From assembly GCA_917880885.1 (NCBI GenBank), contig OU862930.1, positions 32,618,040-32,682,039 of the forward strand: 64,000 bases of DNA. The letters are read 5' to 3'. This DNA comes from Limnephilus marmoratus. Its lineage: Eukaryota; Arthropoda; Insecta; Trichoptera; Limnephilidae. The notes under the pieces were generated by a model. That model was not told the DNA's origin, ran no database searches, and was given only the letters and a program-made list of their open reading frames with translations. This document shows positions 10,213 through 48,410 of this stretch, piece after piece (position 1 is the first letter of the stretch; every line of letters begins with the position of its first letter). The position numbers and the translations under genes are program-made.

Positions 10213-10476
10213 TGTTGCCTATGTCATCTTTGAGGATGCTGTGTGGAGGGTCTTTTTAGGAAAAGGAAGGAGAGGAAGTTCTGGGAAGGAAAGAAGGTAT
10301 GAGGGGAGGGTAGGAATCTGGAGTCGATATATGCCAAGATCCGGACAAACCTTACCCCATGAACCCGGGCACCTCTGCCATATCACCAAATGTAGCGAAC
10401 AACTTGGGTGACCTATGGCAGAGGTGTTGGTCATCCAACAAATGGGGCGGTACTCATACCCGCCTCCCAAATTGAA
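10213..10476 (-). repeat. Family A repeat in ADI1-like intron 2
   Basis: A minus-strand copy without the terminal A tract. It begins with the CTATGTCATCTTTGAGGATG block and ends at CGCCTCCCAAATTG. Confidence 0.75.
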
Positions 10477-15604: not shown

Positions 15605-15674
15605 TATTGAATTTGGATGTCTATGGTTATTGGACCAATTTTATTTATAATATACGTAAACCAAATGTTTAAAT
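15605..15674 (+). pseudogene. Left half of a LINE reverse transcriptase split by the ISL2EU-like element
   Basis: The frame ends VIGPILFIIYVNQMFK, the RT motif that normally follows PQGS, and stops at the left end of the ISL2EU-like element. The matching continuation (FNGKLISFADDTAI) starts right after the element's other end at 30986. One missing base at the junction puts the halves out of frame. Sequence upstream of about 15605 is no longer recognisable as RT. Confidence 0.8.
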
Positions 15675-16363
15675 AGGGTATTTCCACAAACGAGGGATTC
15701 TGTTGAAAATGTACGGAATATTTAAAGAATTTTTTTCTGATTTTAAACATTATACTAAAAAAGTTTGTTTTTTATGTTTTCATTCAATATTTTTGATTTA
15801 AAAAACAGTCCAAGACCGACAAAATGAAAACGGTCCGTGATTGGCTATCGAATTGTGACGTCACAAGTGACTCTCGGCTTTGCCAGTTGACAGCAGTGTT
15901 ACCGAAGCTCCCGATTTCGCGGGAGATCTCCCGATTTTTCACTTCATCTCCCGATCTACCGGAATGGCATCAAAATCTCCCGATTTTTCAAAGTTCCCAG
16001 CGATTTGTCGTTTCTCGTCAATTCTTTGTTTATGGTCCGCTCAAAAGGCAAATTATTGTCTGTGGTTAAAAAAAAATATTCCCCGGATTCGGGTATTGAC
16101 CAGAATAATTACAAAATTCTGCAATCTAAGCATATCTCTATTATAGACCAATACAAACCGATCATCGATCATTTATGAATTATGAGCTGGAAATTATAAT
16201 TTATTACGTAACGGAGGGGTGTCAAAGTGGATTTTTAAGGGCGATTTATAAGATTTTGCGTGTGTAAGCGGGCCAGTCTCAAAATTAAAACCCATGCTCA
16301 ATTGTTTAAATCTTTATTTAGTTAGATATGTAAGTACCTAGTTATTATAAATTTTCATTCAAG

Positions 16364-16570
16364 TCAAAAAAGAGGGTAATATGGTAAATTATCTTGAGCC
16401 AGACACCTGACTTCTCTTATTTTTTTAAGTCGGGTGTCATATTCGTGGTAAGTAGTTATTTTCAGAATCAATAATTGGAGATGCTCATCCGTAAACCTTG
16501 AGCGATGTTTGTTCTTATTTATTTTCAAAACGGAAAACATCCGCTCGCTTAAATAGGTACTACCGAACAC
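16364..16570 (-). pseudogene. hAT transposase C-terminal (dimerisation) segment
   Basis: The 68-codon frame begins MFGSTYLSERMFSVLKINKN and continues KHRSRFTDEHLQLLILK. This matches the C-terminal block of hAT transposases and of domesticated relatives, where the pattern is STYLCEQ.FS..K..K.K.RSRLTDEHL. It agrees with the hAT call made from the ends and 8-bp duplication. The rest of the transposase is absent. The copy-2 equivalent near 37490-37670 has small indels. Confidence 0.8.
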
Positions 16571-16613
16571 TCAAAGAATAAGTGCTGGATGCTTACTTAT
16601 ATTTGGATATAAC

Positions 16614-16946
16614 AATTTGGGAGGTGGGAATGGGTACCGCTGCCCCGGGAACCTTTATTGGATAACCAACACCTCTGCCATAGGTTACCCCGAGTGGTTC
16701 GCTACGTTTGGTGATTTAGCAGGGGTGCCCGGGTTCATGGGATGAGGTTTGTCTAGGCCTGATGACCAGGACACACTAAACCCCAGATTCCTACCCACCC
16801 CTTACACCCTTTTCCTTCCCAGAACTCTCCTCTCCTTCCTTTCCCTAAAAAAACCCTCCACACAGCATCCCCAAAGATGACATAGGCCCTCAGGGAAATT
16901 ATTTTCCTCAGGGCCTCCTGTGTGGACTTCATGTAAAAAAAAAATA
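16614..16946 (+). repeat. Family A repeat inside hAT copy 1
   Basis: The copy has an A tract at its 3' end. It sits at the same internal position in hAT copy 2 (37707-38039), so it was in the element before both copies moved. Confidence 0.8.
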
Positions 16947-16999
16947 TTAACAACATATTTAAAGCAATTTTTTTAGGTTAACATTTTGGCAAGGATTAA

Positions 17000-17880
17000 A
17001 TTTCAAATATTCATTAAAAAAGGTTTTTTCCCCTGTGAGACGGCTTGCGGACTTTTAAATGTTCCGTTTGAGAACATGAATAGTTGCAGTCGGAATATGA
17101 AAAAGGTTATTTTCACTGTGAGACGGCTTGTGGTCTTCTAAATGTTCCTTTTGAGAATATGAATAGTTGCAGTCGGAACATAAGAAAGGTTTTTCTCCAC
17201 AGTGAGTGAGCATGTGGATTTTAAATTGTCACTTTCGAGAACATGAATAGTTGCAGACGGAACATGTAAAAGGTTTTCTCCACTGTGAGACGGCTTGTGG
17301 ACTTTGAAATATTCCTTTTGAGAACGTGAATAGTTGCGGTCGGAACATGAAAATGGTTTTTCTCCACTATGAGTTCACTTGTGAGTTTTTAAAGTCTCCT
17401 TTTTAGCACATAAATAATTGCAATCGGAACATACAAAAGGTTTTTTTCCACTGCGAGACGGCTTGTTGATAATATAAAAATTGTCACTTTCGAGGACATG
17501 AATAGTTGCAGTCGGAACATGTAAAAGGTTTTCTCTACTGTGAGACGGCTTGTGGATTTTAAATTGTCACTTTATAGAACATGAATAGTTGCAGTCGGAA
17601 CATGTAAAAGGTTTTCTCCACTGTGAGACGGCTTGTGAACTATTAAATGTTCCTTTTGAGATCATAAATAGTTGCAATCGGAACATAAAAAAGGTTTTTC
17701 TCCACATTGAATTGTGAATATTAAATTGTGATTTTCAAGAACATGAATAGTTGCAGTCAGAACACGAAAAGGGTTTTTCTCCACTATGACACGGCTTGTG
17801 GACTTTTAAATGTTCCTTTTAAGAAAAAGAATAGTTGCAGTCGGAACATGAAAATGTTTAATAGTTAAATTTTAATCTAA
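17000..17880 (-). pseudogene. Tandem C2H2 zinc-finger array in hAT copy 1
   Basis: About ten tandem units of roughly 84 bp. On the minus strand a typical unit reads KPFSCSDCNYSCSQKEHL, then KVHKPSHSGE. This is C-x2-C-x12-H-x3-H with an SGEKPF-like linker, a canonical DNA-binding C2H2 repeat. Frame breaks and lost His residues (for example missing bases before KPFTC) mean no long frame survives. It lies on the same strand as the hAT C-terminal segment, upstream of it in the reading direction, as though once part of one transposase-like protein. Confidence 0.8.
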
Positions 17881-18612
17881 TATAACTCCTAAGTATTTCA
17901 TAACAGTAATAATTTCAATAACAATTTTAATATGGTCCATGCACTTTCTTTTTGTTTTTAGTCATTAGACTGAGATATTAGTAGATATTTCGATAAAGGA
18001 TTACTAAACAGTGTATCGTTATCAAGTATCTGTCGCCAGGTGAGAGGTGTTTTGAAAAAGCCCATGAGGTGGTTTATTGGTTCCTTAATAAAATTAAAAT
18101 TATTACTTATTGATTAAAATATTGTTACTTTCACTTTTAAAAGAAAGTAGGTATTAAATGAATTTGGCGTATCGTTAAGTGACGGGTGACAGTTCACAAA
18201 ATTTCGTGCTGAGTTGCCAGACGTGAAATAAGTTCCCGTTGAACGTTAGGGAAAATTGCGTTATTCCACAGGCAACATCTACAGGATTGACGGCGCTGCT
18301 TATGGGTTTTTCGTTTGTTGTTAAGGTTCTGCTTCGCAATAATAAAAGGGATTCGAATTATTGACAAGGGAGAAGTTTTACTAAAATAATTCTAGTCATC
18401 TCCCGATTTCTTCAAATTTTTTCCGTTTTCTCCCGATTTCTCCCGATTTTTAGGCGAAAATTCTCCCGATTTTGAAGTTTTGGTTTCGGTAACACTGGTT
18501 GACAGCTCCCAGAAGATTCCTTTGTGAATTGACAACACGCGTTTGTGTCCGTGATTTTTACCGTATATTTTCTTATTTTCGAAGATAATTGTGATATTTT
18601 GTTAACTTTGTC

Positions 18613-18889
18613 ATATATTTTTTTTTTTTTTTTTTTTTTTTTATTTCATACAATTTTTGAAAATACACTTTTATGTTTTTTTCTTGATTACCATACTAGG
18701 CTAATGCCCGTGTTAAGGTAATCATACATGATATAAATTATACAATGTGTGAACTAGAACAAAATATAGGTTTGAAATAGAAATTATAAGATATTAGAAA
18801 CAAGAGAAAAAAAAAAGATAAAAATATTTAAGGTAAAATATAACAAGATATATGTATATGTATGCACATACAAATACATACAAACACAC

Positions 18890-18923
<34 letters not shown>

Positions 18924-19875
18924 ATACACTTACATACACATACACATATATACATATATATATAATTATAAAAAAGAAAATGTTTGAAAGAAGTTAAAAA
19001 TAAAATACTATATAAAATATACATAAAAAATAAAATACTAAAATATACACTTATAACTATATAAAATACTAAAATATAACTATATAAAAATATAAAATAC
19101 TAAGAAGTAAGATTTAAATATGTTAATCTATCTATAATTTTTTTTTTTTTTTTATGAAAGCTAAATTTTTTTTCTGGAGGTTTGTCAAGGTAGGTAATTA
19201 ATCACCTAGAAGAGTATATATTTAGGTTAGATTAGATTTCAGTGAAGTCAGGTTAGAAAAAGATGTGAAGTATGATATTTTATTTAGTTAATTTAATTAT
19301 TTTCTTATCCTTTATAATGGTTAGGAAGTCAGATATTCTTTAAAGAAATCTCGTCCCCTTTCGAATATCCAATTTTGAACACGAATAGTAAAAAGAGGTA
19401 TGGTAATACTTGATTTTATATCGGTGCTCAATGCATTGTATATTTTGGGGGCAATGAACCAAAATTGTCGGTGAGCGAATGTGGTTCTAGTTTTTGGAAC
19501 CATGCATCCCAGATTTGATGAAAAGCGGGTTTTGGCTTGATGTTGTGGAGCCACCAGTAGGTTATTTTTCCGTACGTAGGATAGGCTTGTCTTAGTGAAT
19601 AGTTGGCGAATATCTAAGACCTTAAATTTAGTAAATAGCACATTAGAGGGGTGGGTAGGTTGGCATTTAAATATGATTCTCAGTATTAGTTTTTGAACTG
19701 TAATTATTGGATTAATGACGGATTCTGTGCAACCACCCCATCCCAAAATACCGTAAGTTGCAATGGATTGAAAAAGGGCAAAATATACGCTTCTAAGGGT
19801 TTTTAGGTCTAAGATGGATCTAAGAGAGCAGAATATATGGCAAATATATTGAACATCATTATCATGACTGACAGT
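18613..19875 (-). pseudogene. 5'-truncated LINE with reverse-transcriptase C terminus
   Basis: The minus-strand frame 19321-19746 encodes the tail of a Jockey/CR1-like ORF2 (GWGGCTESVINPIITVQKLI, then RQFWFIAPKIYNAL). Upstream in another frame LRSILDLKTLRSVYFALFQS continues it. The T run at 18613-18642 is its poly(A) tail. The 3' part contains an AT/GT-rich microsatellite (18840-18965). It sits in the 5' region of the YqaJ gene of the ISL2EU-like element. Confidence 0.8.
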
Positions 19876-22800
19876 GGTTTTGTAAGAGGACAGGCTGATA
19901 ACTTGCCTAGAATAGACGTTCTAATGATGGGTTCTTTTTTCATTGACAATGCTAATTTTGTTAGTGCTGAATTTAAAGGATGGAAAGCAGCAAGGTAAGA
20001 AAAAATATGGGTGAAATGCAGATCCGGGCACAGTTTGGAAATTTAATAAAAAGGCACTTTCTAGATGAGAAAAGTGTGGAGAAGATGAATAAAAAATAAA
20101 TTAAGGCGCGCTCGGCAAAATTGAGGGAGATACAACCGTTCAAAGTATTTAAAAATTCACTTCGCGAACTGATATTGACAGTTCGTTCGCCATGTTTTCA
20201 TTGCTTATGTTGGATCCCAGACCTAATACAGAATTAATAGTACGCCAAAATCACAAACCATATTACACAAACCTAGCGTAGCCGCTAAACCACTTGAAAA
20301 CTGGGATGTTTTTTTGCCGTGACGCGAGCAGGCGCTACGAAGGGGGCACTTTCTTTTCTATCACAAACCATGTTTAGCGTATTAGGTTATAAAAAAAATG
20401 GCGGGCGGACGCGGGCGAACTGTCAATATCAGTTTGTAAAGTGAAATTTTAAATACTTTGAACGGTTGTATCTCCCTCAATTTTGCCGAGCGCGCTTTAA
20501 TTTTTGTTTTATTCAGCTTTTCCACACTTTTCTCATCTACAAAGTGCCTTTTTATTAAATTTCCAAACTGTGCCCGGATCTGCATTCCTCCCAAAAATAT
20601 TGTATACTCTCTCATAATATATAATTTTCAGCATGTAGTTACATGCACTCAAATTATTTGTTTTTTTTTTTTAAATTATTTTACGTAAATTCAATCGAAG
20701 TGTCTGTCACATATAGGGTTGCCATCTTCTAAAATAAAAAAGCCTGACTCTGCGCTCGGTAAGGCCGGACATTTTGCCCTAAAAGCCGGACGTACGTACA
20801 TAATTTTGGACATAACTTTTATACATAATAATAAAAAATCTGTTATAAGTTACAGTTGTTTATTAATCACGTATTAACCAATTTAATAACAACAATCATT
20901 AATCAGTCTTATCCTTGTCATCAGTAGACATTTGTATAGAATATATGTCAATAACAAAATAAAAAATATTGAGTCTTCCGTCTGTAGACATACTCGTAAA
21001 TACTAAACTTATAAAACAAACAAACAAAACATAATTTTTTTCTGGTTAAACAGTTGACTAATATTTTTCGTTAAATAGATTTAAATTGAAACATATTTAT
21101 CTTTGTGGACAAAAAACGAAAAACATAAATTAAAATGAAATCTCAACTTCTCCAAATTATTCAAAAATTAAAGAAATCTACCATTTTGTATATATACGGC
21201 GTTTTCACCTACTTTATCCAAAACGTCGTTTTCTTTGGAAATCATTTAATAAAATCCTTGACATGTCATTTTTAAATTATACAATATGTACACCATATTA
21301 GCAATTGTTTGTAATTTATTTCATTCCTTGGTCCACTGGCTGTTTATTAAAGAGAAAACTATTTAATATTTAAGGGTTTTGTCTTTAATATTCCGCCAAT
21401 TTCAGAAGTTCGGAAGACAAAACCCGCGCGAACCAAAAAAGCCTAACAAAAGCCGGACAGGCCGGACATATAAATATTTAGCCGGACACGACCTAAAAAA
21501 GCCAAACATGTCCGGCTAAAGCCGGACAGATGGCAACCCTAGTCACATAACCTGTTTCTCACAACAGGGTCTTTACTGTCACCATAATAAAAAGTATTAT
21601 GTATTGACTTTAAAAATGTAGTAATTTATTACTAATATAGAAATCATTTAATCTGTGTTCATGGCATATAATGTCATTTCTAGCCTAAAAATACACATAA
21701 ATAATGTTAACAGGTGAATTTATTCAAATGTCAAAACTGCAAAAAAACAACAATGCTTGTGGGTTGTCTGATGCCTAATAATACTCTGCATCCGTCCATG
21801 AATATTTTGATCAATCATTATTTCTGTTGTCTATATTACAGATCAGCTAGAGAAAATTATGGAGACAGCGCTGTAGGCTATGTCCAAGTCAAGCGAACCG
21901 GCGACATTTGTACGGTAAAGGCTAGGCTAACTCCTGAGCATAGAATTAGAACGAAAGCTTACGCAGTCATCCTAATTTGCAATGAAGCCCTACAAGTTAT
22001 ACATTCATGCAAATGTGAAGATTGTCCCGCATCTCAAGGTAACCCTCTAATTTGTTTTTACTCATTATTTCATTTTTCTTAATTAATAACATGCTAATTA
22101 TATACATACCGACAGACCCGAACACGCATTGCTGTGGCTAACGAAACCTTTTTAACTAACGCCATCTGTTAAATCAAGTCCACACCGCTCGTTTGTCAGC
22201 CCACAGCCCGCTGCCCGCTGCCGCTTGGCCAAATATATTATGTATTTCAACCTATTTACACAAAACCTTGACAAATTATATACCTTAAAACCTTCCACAT
22301 GAATCACTCTATCTATTGGTGAAAACAGCATGAAAATTCATTGTGTAGTTTAAAAGATTTAAGCGCGCACACAGCATTGGTGAAAACAGCATGAAAATTC
22401 ATTGTGTAGTTTAAAAGATTTAAGCGCGCACACAGCGTGAGCGACTTCATTTTATACTTAGTATATAATAATATAATATAATTAAGAGTAAAGATAAGCC
22501 CAGTTTAAATTAATTATTTTTTTCATTGACTCAGTGACAACGATGATGCAAGTTTGGTCGCATAACCTAGACAGATTGCCTGATTTATATTTTTTGATTA
22601 CTATTATGGTATAGTATCTTCATAAAAGCTTGAATGAGTCAATTTATAGTGTATTTTCATATCTGATCGTATATTGCTGGTAGGTTGTTTTCATATTTGT
22701 TTTGACATTTAAAAATAACTTTGTATTTTTTTATTATTCCAGGTGGCTGTAAACATGCACTTGCATTCCTTTCGTGGCTCCACAGGCGCAGTGAAGAACC

Positions 22801-23707
22801 TCCAAAGACCTCAACAGAGTGCTACTGGAAAAAATCGAAGATGGCTGGGATAGGAACAAGCCTTAAATTCATCAAGGCAGAAGATATGGGAACAGTACCA
22901 CATGTAAATTATCCCAACGATGATGGTACTTTCTTTAATGAGTTGATTGAGAAGAGTATCTCATGTAAATCTGAAATACTTAAATTCTATGTTGACTCAA
23001 CACCCATCGAAAACCTTTCAATTCACAATATGATTTGCAATTTTTTCAATAATGATGTAGGATCTCTCCCGGAGGAATTTATTGACTTTTGTCAATCCTC
23101 AATGACGGCAAAAGCCTGTCAGGGGGCATTTGATGAGACGGTGGATCAGGCGGACTGTCCGTTATGGCACAACCTTAGATATGCTCGAGTGACCGCCTCA
23201 AATTTGTACGAGGCGGCTCACTGTAAAACGACAGACGGGTCACTTGTAGAGAAAATATTAGGTGCTAAATTATATGGGACCAAAGCCATGGAACGGGGTA
23301 AAACTCTAGAACCAAAAGTATTGAAAGTAGTCGAGGCTGCAAGCAAAATTAAATTTAAAAAGTGTGGGTTAATTCTATCAAACGAATTCCCAATTTTTGG
23401 CGCTTCACCAGATGCCTTGGGAGGAGACTTCATCGTAGAAGTCAAATGTCCTATGAAAGACTCGACGATGATAAATTATTTAACGGCTACTGGAGAACCC
23501 ACTCCAAAAGTTATGGCGCAAATACAATTGCAAATGTATTTTGCCCAGAAGACAGCTGCACTGTATTGTGTGGCCAATCCAGACTTAGAGACATCAAAAA
23601 AAGTTACTCAATGTCATGTCAGGTTTGATGAAGACCTATGTAAGGAGCTTATGATTAAATCTACACAATTTTGGTGTAATGCTGTCTTTTCTAGGCTAAA
23701 ATATTAA
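19876..23707 (+). CDS. SWIM zinc-finger/YqaJ-type exonuclease gene of the ISL2EU-like transposon
   Basis: Three exons are visible. Exon 1 ends at 19994 (its start is uncertain, open from about 19876) and reads NLPRIDVLMMG..SAEFKGWKAAR. Exon 2 is 21842-22038 (SARENYGDSAVGYVQVKR). Exon 3 is 22743-23707. Splice sites AAG|GTAAGA, TTACAG|ATC, CAAG|GTAACC and TTCCAG|GTG keep phase. The exon 2/3 junction builds a SWIM finger (CKCEDC..GGCKHA), then RRSEEPP. The YqaJ/lambda-exonuclease fold follows with RYARVTASN, ERGKTLEPK, FGASPDALGG, the catalytic EVKCP, and AQIQLQMYF. Stop is at 23705. All expected nuclease residues are present in an open 300-plus codon exon. Intron 1 hosts two MITEs. The first exon(s) and promoter are displaced by the LINE and hAT insertions, so expression is doubtful. 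Confidence 0.85.
20009..20592. mobile_element. Fold-back MITE with ~200-bp inverted arms
   Basis: Long arms start at AATGCAGATCCGGGCACAG on the left and end with its inverse on the right. The ends are GGG..CCC, flanked by the 8-bp duplication AAAAATAT (20001-20008 and 20593-20600). The insertion is only six bases past the exon-1 donor of the YqaJ gene and leaves GTAAGA intact. The centre (CAAACCTAGCGTAGCCGCTA) resembles the centre of the fold-back element at 42973-43533. Confidence 0.85.
20714..21541. mobile_element. hAT-like MITE with TAGGGTTGCCA ends
   Basis: It starts TAGGGTTGCCATCT and ends AGATGGCAACCCTA, flanked by the 8-bp duplication GTCACATA (20706-20713 and 21542-21549). Subterminal GCCGGAC repeats occur at both ends. 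There is no coding capacity. It lies in intron 1 of the YqaJ gene. Confidence 0.85.
22315..22436. repeat. 61-bp perfect tandem duplication in YqaJ intron 2
   Basis: Units 22315-22375 and 22376-22436 are identical by eye, beginning ATTGGTGAAAACAGCATG. Confidence 0.9.
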
Positions 23708-23876
23708 ATACATGTGTGTAAAACATGAATAATTAATCTTTTAATTATCTTATTGACCTCTCTTTTCAAATTTTCATAATACATATACAAATAAATAAAT
23801 ATCTAACGCAATGCATTCAAATAATAAAAATATAAAAATAAAACAATATGTGTTTTCTTATTTTATTTTAATTACA

Positions 23877-24213
23877 ATTAAAACATATGTATGTTACAAT
23901 TATTATGTTTACATGTAACAGTGGTGACAAAAAATATTTCCGAAGGTTTTTAATAAATTTTTTTATACATATACATATGGAAAAAGGATTAATTAAAACA
24001 TATGTATGTTACAATTATTATGTTTACATGTAACAGTGGTGACAAAAAGTATTTCCGAAGGTTTTTAATAAATTTTTTTATACATATGGAAAAAGGATCA
24101 ATTAAAACATATGTATGTTACAATTATTATGTTTACATGTAACAGTGGTGACAAAAAGTATTTCCGAAGGTTTTTAATAAATTTTTTTATACATATACAT
24201 ATGGAAAAAGGAT
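23877..24213. repeat. Three ~110-bp tandem repeats between the convergent genes
   Basis: Units at 23877, 23991 and 24100 start AATTAAAACATATGTATG and contain ACATGTAACAGTGGTGAC. They sit in the short 3'-to-3' spacer between the YqaJ and transposase stop codons, where polyadenylation signals for both genes would be expected. Confidence 0.85.
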
Positions 24214-24437
24214 AGATTTATGTATACAACAACATTATTATATTACATTACATGTAATATTTTGACCCACAAAACTAGGCGATGCCTGTTTTCTGATGGT
24301 TAGGAAGAATAAAGACTAATATTGATAATAATAATATATAACATAATCAACAAAATGACAGCTTGAGCACAATAAGATTTAGATATATATTTTTTTAGTA
24401 TGTTTATTCAGTTTTTTTTTTTAATTTTAAATGTGGG

Positions 24438-25676
24438 CTATACTTTAATAATGCTATCTTGTAGATTAATGAGACTACAAACTACTCTAACAATTTGATT
24501 CATGATAGGAACATGATTATGGTGTATGAATGCATGCATCTTGCACATCCCAAATTCACGTATCCTACTTATAACCCGTTCTACGTGAATTCGCAGGGCA
24601 GCAATCCTTTTTGCTTGGATAACTTCCTCTGGAGTGAAAATGACATTAGCATATACACTGGGAGGACGAACTAGCTCACATTGCCGAATGTGAAGCAAAT
24701 TGGTTATGTTTTTAAACCCCCCGTCTGCCATGATGCACGTACCCGGCTTCAAGATGTCAAGATATCCGCAATCTTCAACTATAACAGTGTCCGAAGCACG
24801 TCCACCATAACCTGAAGAAATAAAACTAATCACTCCGTTTGGGGTGCACGACACCAGATATTTAAGCGTATTGCAACTTTTATATTCCGACCAGGTTAAA
24901 GATTGGTGTATCGGGTTAATAGGCTTATTGATTTGGATTTCTAAGCAGTCAATAATGCTCTGCACACTGGAGTATCTCGCTCTGAAGCTTATGGGCAAGT
25001 GAAGTCTTATTTTATTAGAAGATGGCCATACAATAAGACTTTTCATAATATGGTCCATTAATAATACAGTTCTACTAAAAATTCTACTCATTGATGTAAC
25101 TGATATACCAAACTGTAGAGCGAGTATCGCAAATTTATCGTTGAGGCGAATTTTTTTTAAGGTAATTAAAATATCGGTTACCTCACAAGGAATTTTCTTG
25201 GTTAATGTGGAAATGACGTGGTACATTTCTTTGGGGATTCCTAGGCATAGCCTAGGACTCCTTTCAAGCGCCATCAGGTTGCATTGGCGCATCTGTAAAT
25301 TAAAATCGACTTCCTCCACGTTGTCACCTAAATAGTCGGGTGTGTTTGGGCGATATAGTGAATTCTCCGATACATCTGATGAATAATCTGATGATTCTGG
25401 TTCCACACTTATCGCAACAACTTTTTTAAGCGGTGTACATTGTCTGCTTATGTCATCAAACTTCAAAGGTGAACAAGCCATATCCATTTGTTTTGTCGAT
25501 GTTGATGTGGCCTTACTGCGCACATGACGCTTCACATTTGCTTGAACAGCCTTGTCGTCATTGGCAGGTGAATATGTTTGAGTTGCAACATGATGCGGTC
25601 CCAATTGGTTCACTGCCGAAGTAGAAGGCTGTGGCTCCGGTTCATTCACAATATCAGATCGAGCCTTAATAAACAT
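24438..25676 (-). CDS. DDE transposase main exon (THAP/DDE_Tnp_4 type) of the ISL2EU-like element
   Basis: A 412-codon frame. Its probable true start is the splice acceptor TTTATTAAG|GCT at 25664 rather than the Met at 25676. Residues 1-130 are Ser/Thr/Pro-rich linker. Residues 150-235 fit the helix-turn-helix of DDE_Tnp_4 proteins. The catalytic core follows: SIIDCLEI (Asp about 243), LTWSEYKSCNTLKYLVSCTP, GYGGRASD, MADGGF (Asp about 318; the usual form is MADRGF) and RIHVERVISRI (Glu about 366). The DDE triad is intact. The N-terminal THAP exons lie about 5 kb away at 30181-30692 because a LINE has landed in the preceding exon, so the gene as a whole is broken. Confidence 0.85.
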   Translation of the reverse strand: MFIKARSDIVNEPEPQPSTSAVNQLGPHHVATQTYSPANDDKAVQANVKRHVRSKATSTSTKQMDMACSPLKFDDISRQCTPLKKVVAISVEPESSDYSSDVSENSLYRPNTPDYLGDNVEEVDFNLQMRQCNLMALERSPRLCLGIPKEMYHVISTLTKKIPCEVTDILITLKKIRLNDKFAILALQFGISVTSMSRIFSRTVLLMDHIMKSLIVWPSSNKIRLHLPISFRARYSSVQSIIDCLEIQINKPINPIHQSLTWSEYKSCNTLKYLVSCTPNGVISFISSGYGGRASDTVIVEDCGYLDILKPGTCIMADGGFKNITNLLHIRQCELVRPPSVYANVIFTPEEVIQAKRIAALRIHVERVISRIREFGMCKMHAFIHHNHVPIMNQIVRVVCSLINLQDSIIKV

Positions 25677-25887
25677 TGTAAGTAGTAAAAATTATAAATC
25701 GTGCCTGAGAAATACTATTCCTTAATACAATAGTATAACAACCATATAACAATAATATAACCATATAACAACCATACAACCACCTACTCGCTGTTACTTC
25801 TTGATAAACGTGATTCGTGAAAAAGTGCAGTAAAAGAGAGTTAATCATATATGTGTGATACATCATTTTATGCAGAAATATTTGATT

Positions 25888-25897
25888 ATTCTCCTGC
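25888..25897. repeat. Left target-site duplication of the full-length LINE
   Basis: ATTCTCCTGC here corresponds to ATTCTCTGC directly after the poly(A) tail at 30181. They differ by one base in length. The duplicated target lies in the transposase coding exon. Confidence 0.65.
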
Positions 25898-26128
25898 GAA
25901 AATTAGTTTTTCATTATCTTAAATAAACTTCGCGAGTTTTAAGTTCTAAAGTGATTTTGACAGTTAAGTTAACCATAGACACTTGTTGAAATAGACGGTA
26001 GAGTCGAGCTGAGAATAACGGAAATTTTTTGCAAGCTGAGTTTACCGTAGTACGAAATTGTAAGCTGCCATAATTACAGCTATTGCTCCTATAATGCACA
26101 GTACATAAGTTAGTGTGAAGTAACAAAA

Positions 26129-27262
26129 ATGTCTACCAACCAGAATACCACCACTACGCGCGCCACCAGGGCAAATATGACGCAAGAGGCATCTGAAAAA
26201 AACCTATCTGACAACATTAAAACAATGTTAAGAAAGGAATTTGAAATAATTAAAACTTTCTTTGAAAATAAAGTAGACGAACAGTCTAAAATGTATGAAG
26301 GTAAAATAGAGGAAGTATTACAGAAAAATTTGACAATCTTAAAAGAAATGGAAATTTTGTCTAAAAAATACGACCAACTCAATATAAAATGCGAAAAAAT
26401 AATTATTGAGAATAAATGTCTCTCTGAAAATATAAAAAATAAAAACGATGACCTAAAAAATGATATTAAAAAAATAACTTTAAATGAATCTTATGCTGAA
26501 AAAGTTAAAAAACACGAGCCTATGGTAATGATTAAACCGAAAAATAAACAAGAAAATGTCAAAACTACAACTGAAATAAAAAATAATATTGATCCCATAA
26601 ACTGCGGTGTGACGGGTGTAAGAAACACAAAAGATGGTGGAATAATTGTTGAATGTAAAAATGCATCGAATATAGACAAGATGTGTGAAGAGGTAAAGGG
26701 AAAATTAGGAGACAAATACGATATTAAAAAAATTAAAGCGAAGAAACCAAGTATCAAAATTGTTGGAATAACTCAGAAACAAGACAGGGAGGAAATTGAA
26801 ACAAAAATAAAATCACAAAATGAAGACATTTTCGAAACAAGCTCAAATATTGAGGTTACTTACATAAAAGAGTTTAAAAATAAAAGAGACCAGATAAATT
26901 ACACAGTATATGCGGAAGTCGACGGCAACACGTACCAACGAATAATTAAGGCTGAAAAGATATATTTAGGATGGGACAGATGCCGTGTTTATGACAATGT
27001 AAATATTTTGAGATGTTTTAACTGTAACGGGTTTAACCACAAGGCGATACATTGTAAAAATGAGATATCATGTCCAAGATGTGCAAAATCCCATGATATT
27101 AAAAACTGTAATGAAGGATACGATGCCTGCATCAATTGCAAAAAAGCAAATGAAAGACTAAAATTAAATTTAAAAATTGATCACCCTGTATGGAGCAAAG
27201 ACTGTCCAGTATACTGTCGAAAAATTGAACAGGAGAACAGAATGGTAAATTTTTTAGATTAA
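26129..27262 (+). CDS. LINE ORF1, gag-like RNA-binding protein
   Basis: The 377-aa product is Lys-rich. The N-terminal half (about residues 20-130) is predicted to be helical or coiled-coil. A basic region with an RRM-like fold is possible at about 150-280. The C terminus has three zinc knuckles: CFNCNGFNHKAIHC (CCHC), then CPRCAKSHDIKNC, then CINC..HPVWSKDC. Jockey-clade ORF1 proteins have this arrangement and act as nucleic-acid chaperones in the retrotransposition particle. The start is the first Met after the 5' UTR. The frame ends 71 bases before the first ORF2 Met, but the ORF2 frame is open across the ORF1 stop. Confidence 0.9.
   Translation: MSTNQNTTTTRATRANMTQEASEKNLSDNIKTMLRKEFEIIKTFFENKVDEQSKMYEGKIEEVLQKNLTILKEMEILSKKYDQLNIKCEKIIIENKCLSENIKNKNDDLKNDIKKITLNESYAEKVKKHEPMVMIKPKNKQENVKTTTEIKNNIDPINCGVTGVRNTKDGGIIVECKNASNIDKMCEEVKGKLGDKYDIKKIKAKKPSIKIVGITQKQDREEIETKIKSQNEDIFETSSNIEVTYIKEFKNKRDQINYTVYAEVDGNTYQRIIKAEKIYLGWDRCRVYDNVNILRCFNCNGFNHKAIHCKNEISCPRCAKSHDIKNCNEGYDACINCKKANERLKLNLKIDHPVWSKDCPVYCRKIEQENRMVNFLD
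27247..27256 (+). promoter_or_regulatory. Candidate -1 frameshift slippery site at the ORF1/ORF2 junction
   Basis: The sequence AAATTTTTTA contains two overlapping slippery heptamers in the right phase for ORF1: A AAT TTT and T TTT TTA. ORF1 stops four bases later at 27260-27262, and ORF2 lies in the -1 frame, open from 27229. The ORF2 frame reads IYSLNISSLLAHIEE before its first Met. A -1 slip would fuse the two products. The alternative is stop-and-restart, as in several other LINEs. No downstream structure was assessed. Confidence 0.5.
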
Positions 27263-27333
27263 ACCGAAACTTCATAACAATATACTCCTTAAACATCTCT
27301 AGTTTACTAGCACATATCGAAGAAGTTGAAGAC

Positions 27334-30072
27334 ATGCTAAGAGAATACAAACCGCACATGGTAATGATGAGTGAAACTTGTGTTACCGAAGAAATCAAAC
27401 TACACGAAATAACATTTCAGGGCTATTCGACAATCAGATGCGACTCATTTAGCAGGCATACGGGGGGAGTTATAATATTAATTCAAAATAATATCTCTTA
27501 CAAAGTTACAACAAATATGGTTCTAGATAAAAATAATACCTGGATGCTTGCTATTGAAATTCAAAAGGATTTTAAGAGGGGAACCTACGTAGCTATTTAT
27601 CATTCCCCAAATCAAAATGATACAAAATTCTTAGATTTTTTTGATGAATGGTGTCGTAAACAAATAAATACAAGAGATTTAATAATAATCTGCGGAGATC
27701 TTAATATCGATATGATGAAACCCAATGCAAAAAGCACAAGACTACAAAGCATCATAAATTGCCTAGGCTGGAAGCAACTTGTCAACAATTATACAAGAAT
27801 AGGAAAAACCTCTAAAACCATGATTGATTTAGTAATTTCGAATGACTTTTATGCGGAAGTTAATGCTGTAGAAGAACTCAAAATATCTGATCACGAAACA
27901 ATTGTTACAAAAATTAAATATAGTAGTCCGAAGCCACAGGAAATACGAAAGATAACGTATAGGAATAAAAAGAACTATGATAAGGATAAGTTGTGTACGG
28001 CATTAAAAAACAAAAAGTGGGTTTGCGATAACCAAGGAAATTTGGAGGAAAAAGCTGATGAACTAGTAGGACATCTGAAAACAGTAGTAAACGAGCTAAT
28101 GCCTATAACTAATATTATATTAAAAGATACAAATAATTGGTATACGAAATCTTTACATCTTCTACAAAAACAAAGGGATACAGCTTATAAAGCCTGTAAA
28201 ATGCAATTTACGGAAGAAAGATGGGAAACCTATAAGAAACTTAGAAACATGTATAGCACAGAAATAAAACAAACCAAAAATTCGTATATTAGACAAAAAA
28301 TAATAACCTCTCAAAGTGATTCAAGGAAAATGTGGACTACACTCAAAGAAATTATAAGCGGTAAACAGAAGGGAGACACTAAGGAAGTTCTGTTCCCCGA
28401 TGGAGTTGAAGATGATAAACCTAAAATAGCCCAAAAATTTAATACAAATTTTATACTCAGTGTCGAAAACATAAATAAGAGCATTCCATTAGTCACAGAC
28501 ACATTTTCTCAATCAATGGAAAGAAGAGAGAATAATAATATTTTCAGGTTTAATAAAATAAACATGGAGTATTTAATGAAAATTCTTAATGCAATGAAAC
28601 TAAAATCGTCCACGGATGGAATTACGATAGGCATAATCAAAGATGCACTGCCAGCTATAGGAGACAGATTAGTTGCACTAATAAATGAATCTCTGTTAGA
28701 GGGAATTTTTCCACAGTCATGGAAAACTTCCATAATAACACCAGTACCCAAAATCATAAATGCTAAAAATTTCGAAGACTTCAGACCAATAAATGGATTA
28801 CCCAAATATGAACAATTACTAGAATCGATAGTTAAAGAACAGATAAACAATTTTATTGAAAAAAATAACTTTCTTGCAAAACAACAATCTGGATTTAGAA
28901 ATAAATATTCCTGTGAAACAGCAATTAATTATGTCATAAATGAATGGAAAACAAGTATGGATCAGAAGAAAATCATCATAGCAGTATTCTTAGACTTTAG
29001 ACGTGCTTTCGAAACGATAGACAGAGAAAGACTTATAATGAAATTGAAGGACATGGGAATTCATGGTAAAGAATTGCAGTGGTTTACTGATTACCTAAAA
29101 AACAGAAAACAAAGAACCAAATTTGGAGATGCTATCTCTGAAGAGCAAAAAGTTAACCTTGGAGTTCCGCAAGGATCGGTCTTGGGACCACTACTTTTTA
29201 TTATATATATTAATGATATAGTGAAGTGTCTAAAGTACTGTTCCATTAAACTGTTTGCTGATGACACACTTTTATATATCATAGCAAATAATATTGAAGA
29301 TGCATTGTCAAAAATACAAAGTGAACTTCATGAAATATCTAAATGGTTATGCATAAATAAACTCAAATTAAATGTAAATAAAAGTAAATTCATGGTATTA
29401 GGGAAAAAACAAAATGAACTTATCACCCTAAATATAGACAATCAAAATATTGAAGAGGTAGAAGAAATTAAATATTTGGGAATCATTATCGATAATAAGT
29501 CAAAACTTAACTCTAACTTCGAAATGCTAACTAAAAAAATTGCCAAAAAGATTAATTTCTTAAGTAGGATAAAGGGAAAATTAGACATTAAAACTAGAAA
29601 ATTGGTCTATAACACAACTGTAGCATCCCATCTGAATTATTGCTCAAGTGTAATCTTTCTGAGCAATAAAACACAAATTAAAAGAATGGAAATAATTCAG
29701 AACAGAGGCTTGAGATCTATATTGTGCTGTAGCAGATATACAAGGATAAAAACCATGCAACGCCAACTCAATATATTAAGTGTGTGGCAAAGATTAGTTT
29801 TCAATACCCTAGTTTTTATTTATAAGTTAAAAAATAAAATGTTACCTGATTATATGTTGAATAATGTAAGAATCAACAGTACAGTTCATTGTTATCCTAC
29901 GAGAAACTGCAACGATTTTAGGCTTCCGAAAACAAATTTATCGGGAACACAAAATAATATTTATTATAAAGGTTTTAAAATGTTCAATGAACTCCCTGTA
30001 AATGTTAAGGAGGCTAAAAGTCTTGCAGTTTTTCGTGGATTATGTCTTAATGTTGTAAAGTCCAAATTTTAG
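27334..30072 (+). CDS. LINE ORF2, endonuclease/reverse transcriptase
   Basis: 912 codons from the first Met. The true N terminus probably includes about 30 more codons (open from 27229), because the endonuclease's first motif (SLNISSLLAHI) lies there. Residues 1-215 form an APE-type endonuclease: MSETCV, GGVIILI, ICGDLNIDM and ISDHETIV. The reverse transcriptase spans about 440-700, with DFRPINGLP, FLDFRRAF, GVPQGSVLGPLLF and the catalytic FADDT at about 641. The C-terminal region (HLNYCSSVIFL, YPTRNCNDFRLP) matches the LINE relics elsewhere in the window. No stop or frameshift was seen, so the product should be active if expressed. Confidence 0.95.
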   Translation: MLREYKPHMVMMSETCVTEEIKLHEITFQGYSTIRCDSFSRHTGGVIILIQNNISYKVTTNMVLDKNNTWMLAIEIQKDFKRGTYVAIYHSPNQNDTKFLDFFDEWCRKQINTRDLIIICGDLNIDMMKPNAKSTRLQSIINCLGWKQLVNNYTRIGKTSKTMIDLVISNDFYAEVNAVEELKISDHETIVTKIKYSSPKPQEIRKITYRNKKNYDKDKLCTALKNKKWVCDNQGNLEEKADELVGHLKTVVNELMPITNIILKDTNNWYTKSLHLLQKQRDTAYKACKMQFTEERWETYKKLRNMYSTEIKQTKNSYIRQKIITSQSDSRKMWTTLKEIISGKQKGDTKEVLFPDGVEDDKPKIAQKFNTNFILSVENINKSIPLVTDTFSQSMERRENNNIFRFNKINMEYLMKILNAMKLKSSTDGITIGIIKDALPAIGDRLVALINESLLEGIFPQSWKTSIITPVPKIINAKNFEDFRPINGLPKYEQLLESIVKEQINNFIEKNNFLAKQQSGFRNKYSCETAINYVINEWKTSMDQKKIIIAVFLDFRRAFETIDRERLIMKLKDMGIHGKELQWFTDYLKNRKQRTKFGDAISEEQKVNLGVPQGSVLGPLLFIIYINDIVKCLKYCSIKLFADDTLLYIIANNIEDALSKIQSELHEISKWLCINKLKLNVNKSKFMVLGKKQNELITLNIDNQNIEEVEEIKYLGIIIDNKSKLNSNFEMLTKKIAKKINFLSRIKGKLDIKTRKLVYNTTVASHLNYCSSVIFLSNKTQIKRMEIIQNRGLRSILCCSRYTRIKTMQRQLNILSVWQRLVFNTLVFIYKLKNKMLPDYMLNNVRINSTVHCYPTRNCNDFRLPKTNLSGTQNNIYYKGFKMFNELPVNVKEAKSLAVFRGLCLNVVKSKF

Positions 30073-30180
30073 TCAGTAGGTAGTAAATAATATTGTAGTA
30101 GTCATAGAAAAGATAACATTAGATATAAGATGTCAAATTTTATATCTAAATAAAATATACAATAAAAAAAAAAAAAAAAA

Positions 30181-30692
30181 AATTCTCTGCCATTGAACTT
30201 GCAATGACTTCAAGGCGTCTTCTCTTTAATCCTGTCAGTCTTGGAGTAGGAAGGGTTTTTTTTTTGACAGTCAAATTTGTGTGGAATGATAGTCTTTTTT
30301 AAATACACTCTACCACCCATTAATTTGAACCTCGTGTAATTTTCGACGTCTTCGTCAAGCTAAAAATAATATAAAGAAATCAGTCACATTTTAAAATAAA
30401 TTGTCGTATAGTAATAGAATTTTATATTGAATTGAATAATAGTAATAAAACAGAAACTTACATTAAAATGATCTTCGCAACAATGAAGGTTGCTTTTGAG
30501 AGAAATGGTTTTGTTTTTAACCGGGTCTCTTTTCATGGAAACACACCATTTTTCCCTCATTTTAATGTCCTTCGGAAAGCACAAGAACAGTTTATTAGGG
30601 GTTGTGTGTGTCGTATTTGAACACATGGGAACCATACAATATTTGTATCTCAAATGGGCAGACATCGGAAGAATTATGACGAATAAAACCAA
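30181..30692 (-). pseudogene. THAP-domain exons of the ISL2EU-like transposase
   Basis: Exon 1 (30462-30692) encodes YKYCMVPMCSN..KLFLCFP and CCEDHF, the C2CH zinc-binding core of a THAP DNA-binding domain. It ends at AAT|GTAAGT. Exon 2 begins at TTTTTAG|CTT (30359) and gives DEDVENYTRFKLMGG, then IPHKFDC, completing the domain. A run of ten A (ten T at 30256-30265 on the plus strand) then shifts the frame. With one base fewer the exon would continue PTPRLTGLKRRRLEVIASSM up to the LINE insertion at 30181. THAP domains direct transposases to element ends. The gene is broken by the frameshift and by the LINE. Several in-frame Met codons make the start uncertain. Confidence 0.8.
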
Positions 30693-30983
30693 ACAAATAC
30701 GCAGTCAACAAACAACGGCTGTCAGTCTTCTCCCGCTTCTCCGTCAGAATAAATTGATAATGAACACTGTCAACTGTCAGCGCGCCCAGCGCCCGTCGTC
30801 ACTCATGACGTCACACGATAGCCCCGCCCCAAAATATCGTTTTGGCGGTAATTCAAAAATGGGAAACTTTGACTCGCTGTAGAAAATTTATTCGTTAACA
30901 TAAAAATAAAATAAAAATGCTTTAATTATCGTAATTTTTTGCTTAATTTTTTAAAGCAATAAAAAAAAACGTGAAAATACCCT
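30693..30983. promoter_or_regulatory. Right subterminal region of the ISL2EU-like element
   Basis: Upstream of the THAP exon, this segment holds a GC-rich patch with CATGACGTCACACG and then the AT-rich terminal repeat. It mirrors the left end (GTGACGTCAC near 15856). It is the likely transposase promoter and binding region; that function is inferred. Confidence 0.5.
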
Positions 30984-30985
30984 AT

Positions 30986-36949: not shown

Positions 36950-37706
36950 CTCACGAACCACGATACATTCCTCATTCAGTCATTCCTGCCCAGTGTTACC
37001 GAAGCTCCCGATTTCGCGGGAGATCTCCCGAGTTTTCACTTCATCTCCCGATCTACCGGAATGGCATCAAAATCTCCCGATTTTTCAAAGTTCCCAGCGA
37101 TTTGTCGTTTCTCGTCAATTCTTTGTTTATGGTCCGCTCAAAAGGCAAATTATTGTCTGTGGTTAAAAAAAAAATATTCCCCGGATTCGGGTATTGACCA
37201 GAATAATTACAAAAATTCTGCAATCTAAGCATATCTCTATTATAGACCCAAACAAACCGATCATCGATCATTTATGAATTATGAGCTGGAAATTATAATT
37301 TATTACGTAACGGAGGGGTATCAAAGTGGATTTTTAAGGGCGATTTATAAGATTTTGCATGTGTAAGCGGGCCAGTCTCAAAATTAAAACCCATGCTCAA
37401 TTGTTTAAATCTTTATTTAGTTAGACATGTAAGTACCTAGTTATTATAAATTTTCATTCAAGTCAAAAAGGAGGGTAAAATGGTAAATTATCTTGAGCCA
37501 GACACCTGACTTCTCTTATTTTTTAATTCGGGTGTCATATTCGTGGTAAGTAGTTATTTTAAGAATCAATTGGAGATGCTCATCCGTAAACCTTGAGCGA
37601 TGTTTGTTCTTATTTATTTTCAAAACGGAAAACATCCGCTCGCTTAAGTAGGTACTACCGAACACTCACAGAATACGTGCTGGATGCTTACTTATATTTG
37701 GATAAA

Positions 37707-38039
37707 ACAATTTGGGAGGCGGGAATGGGTACCGCCGCCCCGGGAACCTTTATTGGATAACCAACACCTCTGCCATAGGTCACCCCAAGTGGTTCGCTAC
37801 GTTTGGTGATTTAGCAGGGGTGCCCGGGTTCATGGGATGAGGTTTGTCTAGGCCTGATGACCAGGACACACTAAACCCCAGATTCCTACCCACCCCTTAC
37901 ACCCTTTTCCTTCCCAGAACTCTCCTCTCCTTCCTTTCCCTAAAAAAACCCTCCACACAGCATCCCCAAAGATGACATAGGCCCTCAGGGAAATTATTTT
38001 CCTCAGGGCCTCCTGTGTGGACTTCATGTAAAAAAAAAA
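37707..38039 (+). repeat. Family A repeat inside hAT copy 2
   Basis: At the same internal position as the family A copy in hAT copy 1, with a 3' A tract. Confidence 0.8.
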
Positions 38040-38094
38040 TATTAACAACATATTTAAAGCAATTTTTTTAGGTTAACATTTCGGCAAGGATTAA

Positions 38095-38880
38095 ATTTCA
38101 AACATTCATTAAAAAAGGATTTTTTCCCCTGTGAGACGGCTTGCGGACTTTTAAATGTTCCTTTTGAGAAGATGAATAGTTGCAGTCGGAACATAAGAAA
38201 GGTTTTTCTCCACAGTGAGTCAGCGTGTGGATTTTAAATTGTCACTTTCGAGAACATGAATAGTTGCAGACGGAACATGTAAAAGGTTTTCTCCACTGTC
38301 AGACGGCTTGTGGACTTTTAAATATTCCTTTTGAGAACGTGAATAGTTGCAGTCGGAACATGAAAATGGTTTTTCTCCACTATGAGTTCACTTTTGAGTT
38401 TTTAAAGTCTCCTTTTTAGCACATAAATAATTGCAATCGGAACATACAAATGGTTTTTTTCCACTGCGAGACGGCTTGTTGATGATATAAAAATTGTCAC
38501 TTTCGAGGACATGAATAGTTGCAGTCGGAACATGTAAAAGGTTTTCTCCACTCTGAAACGGCTTGTGGATTTTAAATTGTCACTTTATAGAACATGAATA
38601 GTTGCAGTCGGAACATGTAAAAGGTTTTCTCCACTGTGAGACGGCTTGTGAACTATTAAATGTTCCTTTTGAGAACATAAATAGTTGCAATCGGAACATA
38701 AAAAAAGGTTTTTCTCCACATTGAATTGTGAATATTAAATTGTGACTTTCAAGAACATGAATTGCAGTCAGAACACGAAAAGGGTTTTTCTCCACTATGA
38801 CACGGCTTGTGGACTTTTAAATGTTCCTTTTAAGAAAAAGAATAGTTGCAGTCGGAACACGAAAATGTTTAATGGTTAAA
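38095..38880 (-). pseudogene. Tandem C2H2 zinc-finger array in hAT copy 2
   Basis: The same array as 17000-17880 on the same strand, with one finger fewer by eye. It includes minus-strand frames such as KPFTCSDCNYSCSIK. C-x2-C pairs are mostly kept while the frame shifts at KPF linkers, so it is not a working protein. Confidence 0.8.
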
Positions 38881-38903
38881 TTTTATTCTAATATAACTCC
38901 TAA

Positions 38904-39664
38904 AGGCGGCGGTTCGCGCCGCGACCGCGACCGGAGACCGAGACGGGAGACAGAGGCAGGCGACAGCGACAAGTCTCGGTCTCTTCGGCACTACTGTGGG
39001 TAGAGACCGAGACGGCGAGACCGCGACCGCCTTCACCTTCAGTATAGCGCAGTCTGTCGATGAGGTCGGTATTGTTGTACTGTTATTAATTTACACTAAT
39101 GGAAACCCAAGTAGAGTTACTAATGGAGGAAGAAGAAGACGATGATTTGTACATATTTTAGGCGATTTTTAGTTTACCTATCACCTATTGTTTGACAATA
39201 ATATGTTCAGGACTTATTTTAGAATGAATAAAACATAGTTACAAAAAGACAATGTCTACAAAAGGAAGAATATCATTGAAAATAAATTTAATTTAATTTA
39301 ATTTAAAAATTAATAATTTATTATTTTTTTTAATTTGTTAATTTAATTAATTAATTTTTTTCGGAATCTAATTGTGCATTGTATATGCTGTCTGATCAGT
39401 TCAATCAGCTTCTCACAGTATTAGTCAGAAAAAGCGGTCATTTTTTACAACAACCACACATACTTATCAAGCGCGACGCGAGACACTACTTGTCCAGGGC
39501 AGCGACCGTCTCGCTGTCTCCCGTCTCCCGTCTCTGTCTGCTGTCTCGGTCGCGCGCACCAACTGGCCCCCATACAAAGCTAAAGGACAAGTACCCGTTG
39601 CGGTCGCCTGCCTCTGTCTCCCGTCTCGGTCTCCGGTCTCGGTCGCGGCGCGCAACCGCCGCCT
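38904..39664. mobile_element. TAA-flanked GC-rich MITE (PIF/Harbinger-like)
   Basis: The ends are AGGCGGCGGTT and the inverse AACCGCCGCCT, with long GC-rich arms full of GAGACCGAGACGG text. TAA flanks both sides (38901-38903 and 39665-39667). The empty site CTCCTAAGTATTTC is present once in hAT copy 1 (about 17887), proving the boundaries. The central part is AT-rich. A 3-bp TAA duplication is typical of PIF/Harbinger. Confidence 0.9.
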
Positions 39665-40300
39665 TAAGTATTTCATAACAGTAATAAATGGTCCATGCAC
39701 TTTCTTTTTGTTTTTGGTATTAAGTTATATTATATTATATTTGGACTGAGATATTAGTAGGTATTTCGATAAAGGATTACTAAACAGTGTATCGTTATCA
39801 AGTATCTGTCGCCAGGTGAGAGGTGTTTTGAAAAAGCCCATGAGGTGGTTTATTGGTTCCTTAATAAAATTTAAATTATTACTTATTGATTAAAAGATTG
39901 TTACTTATATGAATGTTGTTCACTTTTAAAAGAAAGTAGGTATTAAATGAATTTGGCGTATCGTTAAGTGACGGGTGACAGTTCACAAAATTTCGTGCTG
40001 AGTTGCCAGACGTGAAATAAGTCCCCGTTGAACGTTAGGGAAAATTGCGTTATTTCACAGGCAACATCTACAGTAATCGGATTGACGGCGCTGCTTATGG
40101 GTTTTTCGTTTGTTGTTAAGGTTCTGCTTCGCAATAATAAAAGGGATTCGAATTATTGACAAGGGAGAAGTTTTACTAAAATAATTCTAGTCATCTCCCG
40201 ATTTCTTCAAATTTTTTCCGTTTTCTCCCGATTTCTCCCGATTTTTAGGCGAAAATTCTCCCGATTTTGAAGTTTTGGTTTCGGTAACGCTGTTCCTGCC

Positions 40301-46543: not shown

Positions 46544-48410
46544 CTGAGTTTATGTCACCGAGAAGGTAATTGTTAGTTTTATTTTATTTATTTTTTTTAT
46601 TGAGTTAGTTTATACTACATGAATATAAACTAATAAGCACAATGTAACATTTCATTTAATAAAATTAAATATTTTTACAGTAAGCATAACATTTATTTTT
46701 AAATACATTCATTCTTTCTTCATTCTTCATTCTTTCAGGCATTTCATCATACATCTTTAGTCCTCTGTACATTAGGCAGTTCTGTGATTTTGATTTCTTC
46801 ATGTGTGGCAATCGAAATCTGTTTATATTTCTTGTTTCGTAATTATGAATGTCTCTATTAAAAACAATTTCATCCTTAAAGTATTTTGACATGTGGTTTT
46901 TCATACTTTTATGCACAAAAATTAACACATTAAATAGTAGTCTATTTTTTATTGGAATCCAATTTAGCTCCTCTCTCATTTGATTAATCCTTCCGTATTT
47001 GCCTTTCCCCAGTATACCTACATCCAGGGCCGGATTAACCATGTCGGGGCCCCTAGGCAATGCACGTATTGGGGCCCCTTTACCAATGGCGGACTAACAG
47101 GGGGGGGGAGGGGTGAAGGGGCCTCCAAACGTTGTTCTCTTGATCAAATCCTTAACAAGGCTTTAAGGAGGGGGGGGTAAGGTTTTTTTTATCATTTTAT
47201 ATTAGCAAATTCACCGAAATTTTTTAGCAAAAATCGCGTATTTTACTTCAAAATGCTGCCAAAAATAAATAAAAAATCGAAAAAAAACTCTCTTTGACAA
47301 CCTAGGAAAACATATTACCTTTTAAACGCATTCCGATTTTATGTTTCAAATGATCCGGTGACGAGTTATGGAGTTCACCGTATAACAACTTTTTTTCGAG
47401 GTGCCTCCGGAGATTCACTCTCACGGACTTATTTATTGATATTTTTAATTGAATTTTTTTTCAAAGATACTTCAGATGTAATAATATAAAGTGTGTATGA
47501 AATAAATAAAACCAACATTATTCATATCTCAAAAAAATCATGACAATATGCTTTATTTCACCTTTAAAACCTTACTCCCCTTAACCCGCCCAAATCCACG
47601 ATGCGATTATAGTTTACAACGCTCTTTAAAACGTCAATAACTCCTCAAATGCTTCAATCATTAAATCAAGATTTTAGGTATTCCTAAAAAATATATTTTT
47701 GCATCCGTAAAAAATATTTTAAAAATTGTGACGATTCTGTATAAAATAATAAAAAATGTTTTCCTAAAAGTCAACACATTTCTATGTCAGTTGAGACAAC
47801 AAATTTTAAATTTCTATGGGAATAACAGAGAAGACAAAACATTAATTCATTTCAACCTCATTAACCTACGTCCAATATTACGATCTCCTTTTAGTTATGT
47901 ATGACAAAAAGAGATGTAAAATAAAACGTTAAAACCTTTTGCCTATCTGTAGAGATTATTTTACTTCTCGAAGTTGACATCATAATACGTTTGTCGTCGC
48001 TTTCTAGTGCATTAATTTGAAATGTCTGAAAACAGAGATGACAATATTAATTATCTTGCTACAAAAAAACTTGGGTTGCTTGACATTCCGTTTTCATTTT
48101 AGAAAGAGCCACAAAAAAATGAGGAACCACATCGGAAGGTTCGGCCAACCGACCACCTGATCCTCAAACCAGAGTCATTTTTTAATTCCTTTCTGCGTAT
48201 TTCCTTAAAATTAACGACAAAATGTTACGATTGTAGACAATCAGATGACGGGGGATGTTTTTTGTTTAGTTTTATGGGTTTTGGGTTATTTGCAGGGTCA
48301 TGCCACATTAGTTCAGAAGTAATAAATGTTTATTTAATTTCATTTTATTTTTATCAAATAATCTTTTCGTGGAAGACTTGATTAAGACAATGACAATGCA
48401 GTGCTTTTTT

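Follow-up and report, generated by a model that had tools for sequence, protein, structure and literature searches.

Limnephilus marmoratus carries an interrupted two-gene ISL2EU transposon whose YqaJ-type nuclease is a candidate for resecting transposition-made DNA ends

Introduction

ISL2EU is a known family of animal transposons, and its defining paper describes a THAP-HTH-DDE transposase, a second gene with a YqaJ domain, an A|AT|T target, termini whose first two bases are usually GG and a mean size of about 4,840 bp, while calling the role of the extra open reading frames (ORFs) unknown (PMC4482050). Here we analyze what is almost certainly a member of this family at positions 15675-30983 of a 64,000-nt stretch of DNA from Limnephilus marmoratus (the window, to which positions refer unless a contig is named), a species with a 1.63-Gb genome, and we weigh the possibility that its second protein resects the DNA ends made by transposition.

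The Spy transposons are reported to be the sister group of ISL2EU by transposase (PMC11304231), but have one gene, no YqaJ domain and no target duplication, the duplication being of 2 bp in ISL2EU and of 3 bp in Harbinger elements (PMC4482050).

The second protein shares its fold and catalytic residues with the YqaJ-type 5'-3' exonucleases lambda exonuclease and LHK-Exo. Lambda exonuclease acts in the 5'-3' direction, yields 3' single strands from double-strand ends and works with an annealing protein; structure 6m9k is that of its complex with Red beta. The transposon nuclease differs from these enzymes by about 200 extra N-terminal residues that include a finger, and the two genes described for the transposon comprise no annealing protein, unlike the lambda system. 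A DDE-type transposase is likewise combined with a lambda-exonuclease-type nuclease in KolobokE, a lineage with a PD-(D/E)XK lambda-exonuclease-like nuclease, although there the two form a single protein, the transposase is Mutator-like (PF20700) and the target duplication is TTAA. The Kolobok paper reports a RecQ helicase and a DEDDh exonuclease in other Kolobok lineages. Searches of the open-access literature (subscription papers and Repbase being outside their scope) returned nothing on-topic for YqaJ with SWIM, nothing for YqaJ with gap repair and transposons, and nothing for YqaJ with Kolobok.

Results

The element is delimited by 13-bp terminal inverted repeats, AGGGTATTTCCAC on the left (15675-15687, + strand) and AGGGTATTTTCAC on the right (30971-30983, - strand), which are inverted copies of each other with one difference and recur as the ends of sister copies. 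With at most one mismatch allowed, the end pattern matched four times in the window versus 0.24 times expected in shuffles, far above chance, and the only two exact matches were the ends themselves. The outer flanks, AAT on the left and ATT on the right, correspond to AT duplications (15673-15674, A|AT context; 30984-30985, AT|T context; neither assigned a strand) of an A|AT|T target. When the flanks were joined without the element, the junction proved to be flanked by LINE (long interspersed nuclear element) reverse-transcriptase residues, VIGPILFIIYVNQMFK before it and FADDTAII after it, the two pieces being in different frames. Because such residues stand on both sides, the borders are right, and the element lies inserted within an older LINE.

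In its AT duplication within A|AT|T, its THAP-HTH-DDE transposase and its second gene with a YqaJ domain, the element agrees with the published description of ISL2EU (PMC4482050); it differs in that its termini open with AGGG, the published ones usually with GG, and in that its transposase gene is broken. Subtracting four nested insertions and a large LINE from its 15.3 kb leaves about 5.5 kb, close to the 5,250 bp of a sister element (C4:48091824-48097073) and to the published mean, so that the size once the inserts are removed is also that of ISL2EU, about 5 kb (PMC4482050). What stands at the locus is a two-gene transposon of a kind already known, in an interrupted copy. The original prediction had proposed, from the letters alone, an ISL2EU-like element with matching ends, AT outside both of them, two convergent genes and a nuclease as second protein, and these points were all borne out, the nuclease gene lying on the + strand and the transposase gene on the - strand.

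The nuclease gene consists of three exons separated by GT-AG introns (exon 1, MTDSGFV..., 19864-19994, donor GTAAGA; exon 2, 21842-22038; exon 3, 22743-23707; all on the + strand) and encodes 430 aa without a stop. Exon 3 contains the YqaJ core, which matched the Pfam profile PF09588 (2.2e-12, 47.9 bits, cut-off 22), and the codons for the catalytic residues D333 (23411-23413), E342 (23438-23440) and K344 (23444-23446). The protein thus has a lambda-exonuclease/YqaJ-type fold with D-ExK catalytic residues, its 5'-3' exonuclease activity being predicted from sequence, and the nuclease motifs earlier described as intact are indeed present. Among 54 nearly invariant positions, it departs from its relatives at one. 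The 328-codon exon first noticed does encode the nuclease, although exon 1 had been missed. Selection on this gene was considered because it is the sole intact one of the copy, but the lesions are too few to tell. Two repeats were observed in and beside the gene, an exact 61-bp tandem duplication in intron 2 (22315-22436) and a unit of about 109 bp present three times in a row between the nuclease and transposase genes (23875-24218).

The N-terminal finger is split between exon 2, which encodes its first two cysteines (22014-22016 and 22023-22025), and exon 3, which encodes its last cysteine (22748-22750) and histidine (22754-22756). Canonical SWIM ligands follow CxC...CxH. The ligands conserved in the nuclease family are instead Cx2Cx6CxH, and conservation does not extend to the first cysteine of the CKC in the window protein, a cysteine at the CxC-forming place being found in 6 of the 120 nuclease relatives listed. 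The Pfam SWIM profile gave no match at E 0.1 with exons 2 and 3 of the window protein as query, and reached E values of 1 or lower in 3 of 50 relatives (best 0.066). The YqaJ half of the earlier SWIM-plus-YqaJ assignment therefore stands, whereas the canonical SWIM motif was rejected. That this SWIM-like N-terminal domain is linked to RAD51 via Sws1 is speculation.

A finger of this kind could bind DNA or protein, and the second protein might then be mainly a DNA-binding and import helper with a secondary nuclease activity, similar to the Myb-like protein of Harbinger elements, which reportedly aids nuclear import of the transposase and binds the ends (PMC9179366). We consider this unlikely, as 120 of 120 relatives among the matches listed (120 of 347) retain the catalytic D, E and K, and the transposase already has THAP and HTH domains of its own. 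An action against the host, for instance RNA shut-off of the type exerted by herpesvirus SOX, a protein with a similar fold, appears a slim prospect.

The transposase gene, on the - strand, is interrupted. Its exon 1 encodes the THAP finger (30462-30665, donor GTAAGT), and its exon 2 is divided into a 5' part with the end of the THAP domain (30183-30359), whose frame breaks within a homopolymer run (30256-30265), and an HTH/DDE part (24438-25647) with the catalytic D (24948-24950), D (24723-24725) and E (24579-24581). Between the two parts lies a LINE of about 4.5 kb (25648-30182, + strand) with ORF1 (26114-27262), ORF2 (27229-30072; endonuclease and reverse transcriptase), a poly-A end (30164-30182) and a TTC/ATTC duplication of about 3-4 bp, its left border being set by comparison with sister copies. 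In the near-identical copies L120 and L121 exon 2 is uninterrupted, a 460-residue frame joining the end of the THAP domain directly to the DDE core. The window proteins matched THAP (PF05485, 1.3e-12), DDE_Tnp_4 (PF13359, 1.7e-36) and HTH_Tnp_4 (PF13613, 1.7e-8), all above Pfam cut-offs, and the profile searches proposed at the outset for YqaJ, THAP and DDE_Tnp_4 thus all succeeded. The catalytic triad, present in the window, is complete in 117 of 120 relatives among the matches listed (120 of 431), and the window protein departs at one of 56 nearly invariant positions. Beside its second catalytic Asp it has a Gly (24720-24722), where 119 of the 120 listed relatives have Arg and one has Lys, and where the three sister copies covering the position (L120, L121 and L123) all have Arg. 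Given the LINE insertion, the frame break and the Arg-to-Gly change, this transposase is very probably dead. The THAP and DDE domains originally predicted were hence confirmed in a gene that is broken in this copy, and the 412-codon exon assigned to it holds the DDE part, whereas its first 10 or so codons belong to the inserted LINE, as the sister copies reveal.

Across the host genome the exact 13-bp end was counted 467 times, versus 131 times for the backwards pattern. A total of 126 rows of nuclease matches was obtained, of which 55 were kept as ISL2EU-type and merged into 34 places (same-strand rows less than 20 kb apart); the other 71, set aside before the linkage count, match just part of the nuclease core (29-39% identity; frame lengths 206-891 aa), and many of them recur among the places of a Kolobok-type fusion described below. 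A transposase was found within 20 kb at 26 of the 34 nuclease places, convergent in 25 of the 26, the lone different pair being weak fragments on contig C29. For stop-free rows covering at least 299 of 321 residues, counted by eye, linkage was seen in 11 of 12, the exception (C12:50983492) being 41% identical. The termini also served to locate other copies, as had been suggested. The same ends with A|AT|T flanks were read in five elements (the window and C2:7.32 Mb, C4:59.09 Mb, C4:48.09 Mb and C2:35.02 Mb), the last four chosen for having both ends among 100 listed end matches of the 467, and both genes lay inside each of the five, though not intact in every one; a single gene between unrelated termini was found in none. 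Eight further single ends (L081-L088) stood at A|AT|T in seven cases and not in one. Nuclease exon 3 of three other copies differed from that of the window at 4, 4 and 7 of its 965 bases and, judged by these few differences, the genome holds recent ISL2EU copies.

The linkage bears on two alternatives. A locus full of nested insertions might suggest that two unrelated mobile genes came to adjoin by chance or by nesting, an explanation that we rejected and to which we give a negligible probability, in view of the genome-wide linkage, the one arrangement shared by 25 of 26 pairs and the shared ends that enclose both genes in all five elements, in one of them within just 5,250 bp. Alternatively, the nuclease could trim or resect transposon or target ends at integration instead of acting on the donor gap; its linkage and co-inheritance with the transposase and the different duplications of ISL2EU, Spy and Harbinger would be in keeping with this, but the ends are exact and untrimmed in five of five elements, and target and duplication vary also among groups without a YqaJ gene, so that such a role seems quite improbable.

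Short facing pairs of ends were also observed. The 100 end matches listed, out of 467, include 14 such pairs less than 3 kb apart, many at about 1.9-2.2 kb, as counted by eye (for example C2:2400930/2402862 and C4:3926997/3928966). These pairs suggest a non-autonomous ISL2EU derivative that may be moved in trans.

Outside this species, 10 of the 119 nuclease rows lie on a contig whose exact length (at least 2.5 kb) recurs among the 120 transposase rows, whereas 100 length offsets gave 0.29 on average and 2 at most; an additional pair of equal length (1,587 bp) was dropped as too short for both genes. Locus tags are consecutive in two of the ten (Spodoptera exigua HW555_009698/009699 and Pyrocoelia pectoralis RI129_001184/001185), another four come from contigs of 3.7-4.5 kb, and in the remaining four a chromosome-size contig is all that is shared, which is weak evidence. 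Nuclease and transposase distances over the ten pairs and the window were correlated (r 0.86, p 1.5e-4), though less strongly once the two closest-lying values were left out as close pairs (r 0.52, p 0.003).

Among the 71 rows set aside, one belongs to an 829-residue frame, of which 605 residues were profiled and in which YqaJ (73.5 bits) comes after a Mutator-like transposase (PF20700, 180 bits). The fusion element lies, for example, at C14:15265587-15272431 (loci L156-L158 and L161). Comparison of three copies placed its start at TTAA in all three and its end at TTAA in two, the end of the third lying beyond the alignment; the first copy measures 6.8 kb and has inverted ends GAGGAAATAC/GAGGTAATAC. 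By sequence, this family in the same genome fits KolobokE, a known lineage. Its nuclease half gave 121 rows in the host genome, and the 97-99% identity of most of these hints at a recent burst. In viral contigs 284 nuclease relatives were confirmed, and the best segments of the best 80 of the 284 were 21-30% identical, all over the nuclease core. An unrooted tree was built from 49 nuclease cores, 20 of them from ISL2EU rows, 28 from hand-picked loci among the 80 viral ones and 1 of Kolobok type. The ISL2EU rows formed one group (100/98), and the Kolobok-type row stood apart from it on a long branch; since the root is not fixed, separate capture of the nuclease cannot be claimed.

Much of the 15.3-kb length is accounted for by later insertions that are not part of ISL2EU proper. 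A hAT-type element (15894-18497, no strand assigned) has an 8-bp duplication, GTTGACAG, and a decayed C2H2 zinc-finger array (17015-17854); such arrays were rejected as ISL2EU cargo, since they belong to this later insertion. A LINE fragment (about 18620-19843, - strand, borders approximate) with a 7-bp duplication, ATATATT, stops 13-20 bases ahead of the nuclease start codon. Nuclease intron 1 contains an insertion resembling a miniature inverted-repeat transposable element (20008-20593) with 183-nt inverted repeats, and a further element (20714-21541) with the 8-bp duplication GTCACATA, neither assigned a strand. The hAT-type element occurs a second time at 36991-40292 with the same ends, CAGTGTTACCGAA, about 90-96% identity by stretch, a different 8-bp duplication, TTCCTGCC, and its own decayed C2H2 array (38110-38870). 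These arrays share up to 92% identity with a longer decayed one at 62113-64000, and the hAT-type element may thus have acquired part of a host-type zinc-finger gene. A short repeat has many copies in the window, for example at 16613-16942 (inside the hAT-type element), 10217-10474, 2356-2783 and 48405-49276.

Discussion

In the explanation that we prefer, the THAP finger of the transposase would bind the element ends and its DDE core would cut and rejoin the DNA, while the second protein would act as a 5'-to-3' double-strand-end exonuclease on the ends made by transposition, chiefly at the donor gap. The ends left by excision would be its natural double-strand substrates, and resection there would leave 3' single strands, favoring templated or annealing repair over direct joining; such repair could return the element to the donor site and increase its copy number. 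The Cx2Cx6CxH SWIM-like domain could serve for docking, whether on DNA, on the transposase or on a host recombination factor. By analogy, the recurrence of end-processing enzymes across Kolobok lineages supports this resection reading. The inference in the original prediction, that the exonuclease processes transposon ends or gaps after excision, finds partial support.

Several points weigh against it. Spy transposes well with one gene (PMC4482050; PMC11304231), and the nuclease is thus not required for cutting and joining as such. Catalytic conservation was measured on predicted database proteins, a sample biased toward intact ones. Of the 34 nuclease places 8 have no linked partner, as have 9 of the 35 transposase places. 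The finger departs in its spacing from canonical SWIM, and the fold match to ZSWIM8 barely exceeds the level that the tool calls common. We give about an even chance to the full explanation, ISL2EU identity plus a second protein that resects transposition-made ends, and hold the resection role itself tentatively, at somewhat short of that.

If ISL2EU does bring its own end-resection enzyme, its excision might often be repaired with the sister or homologue as template, which would turn cut-and-paste transposition into net gain. ISL2EU, with a separate gene, and the Kolobok-type elements, with a fusion, would both use the same type of nuclease in this way, and Spy does without it; this broader scheme is possible but doubtful. 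With recent copies, short derivative-like end pairs, a one-gene sister group reported to be active and a second superfamily with a nuclease fusion, the effect of a transposon-borne exonuclease on donor-site repair is now a directly testable question.
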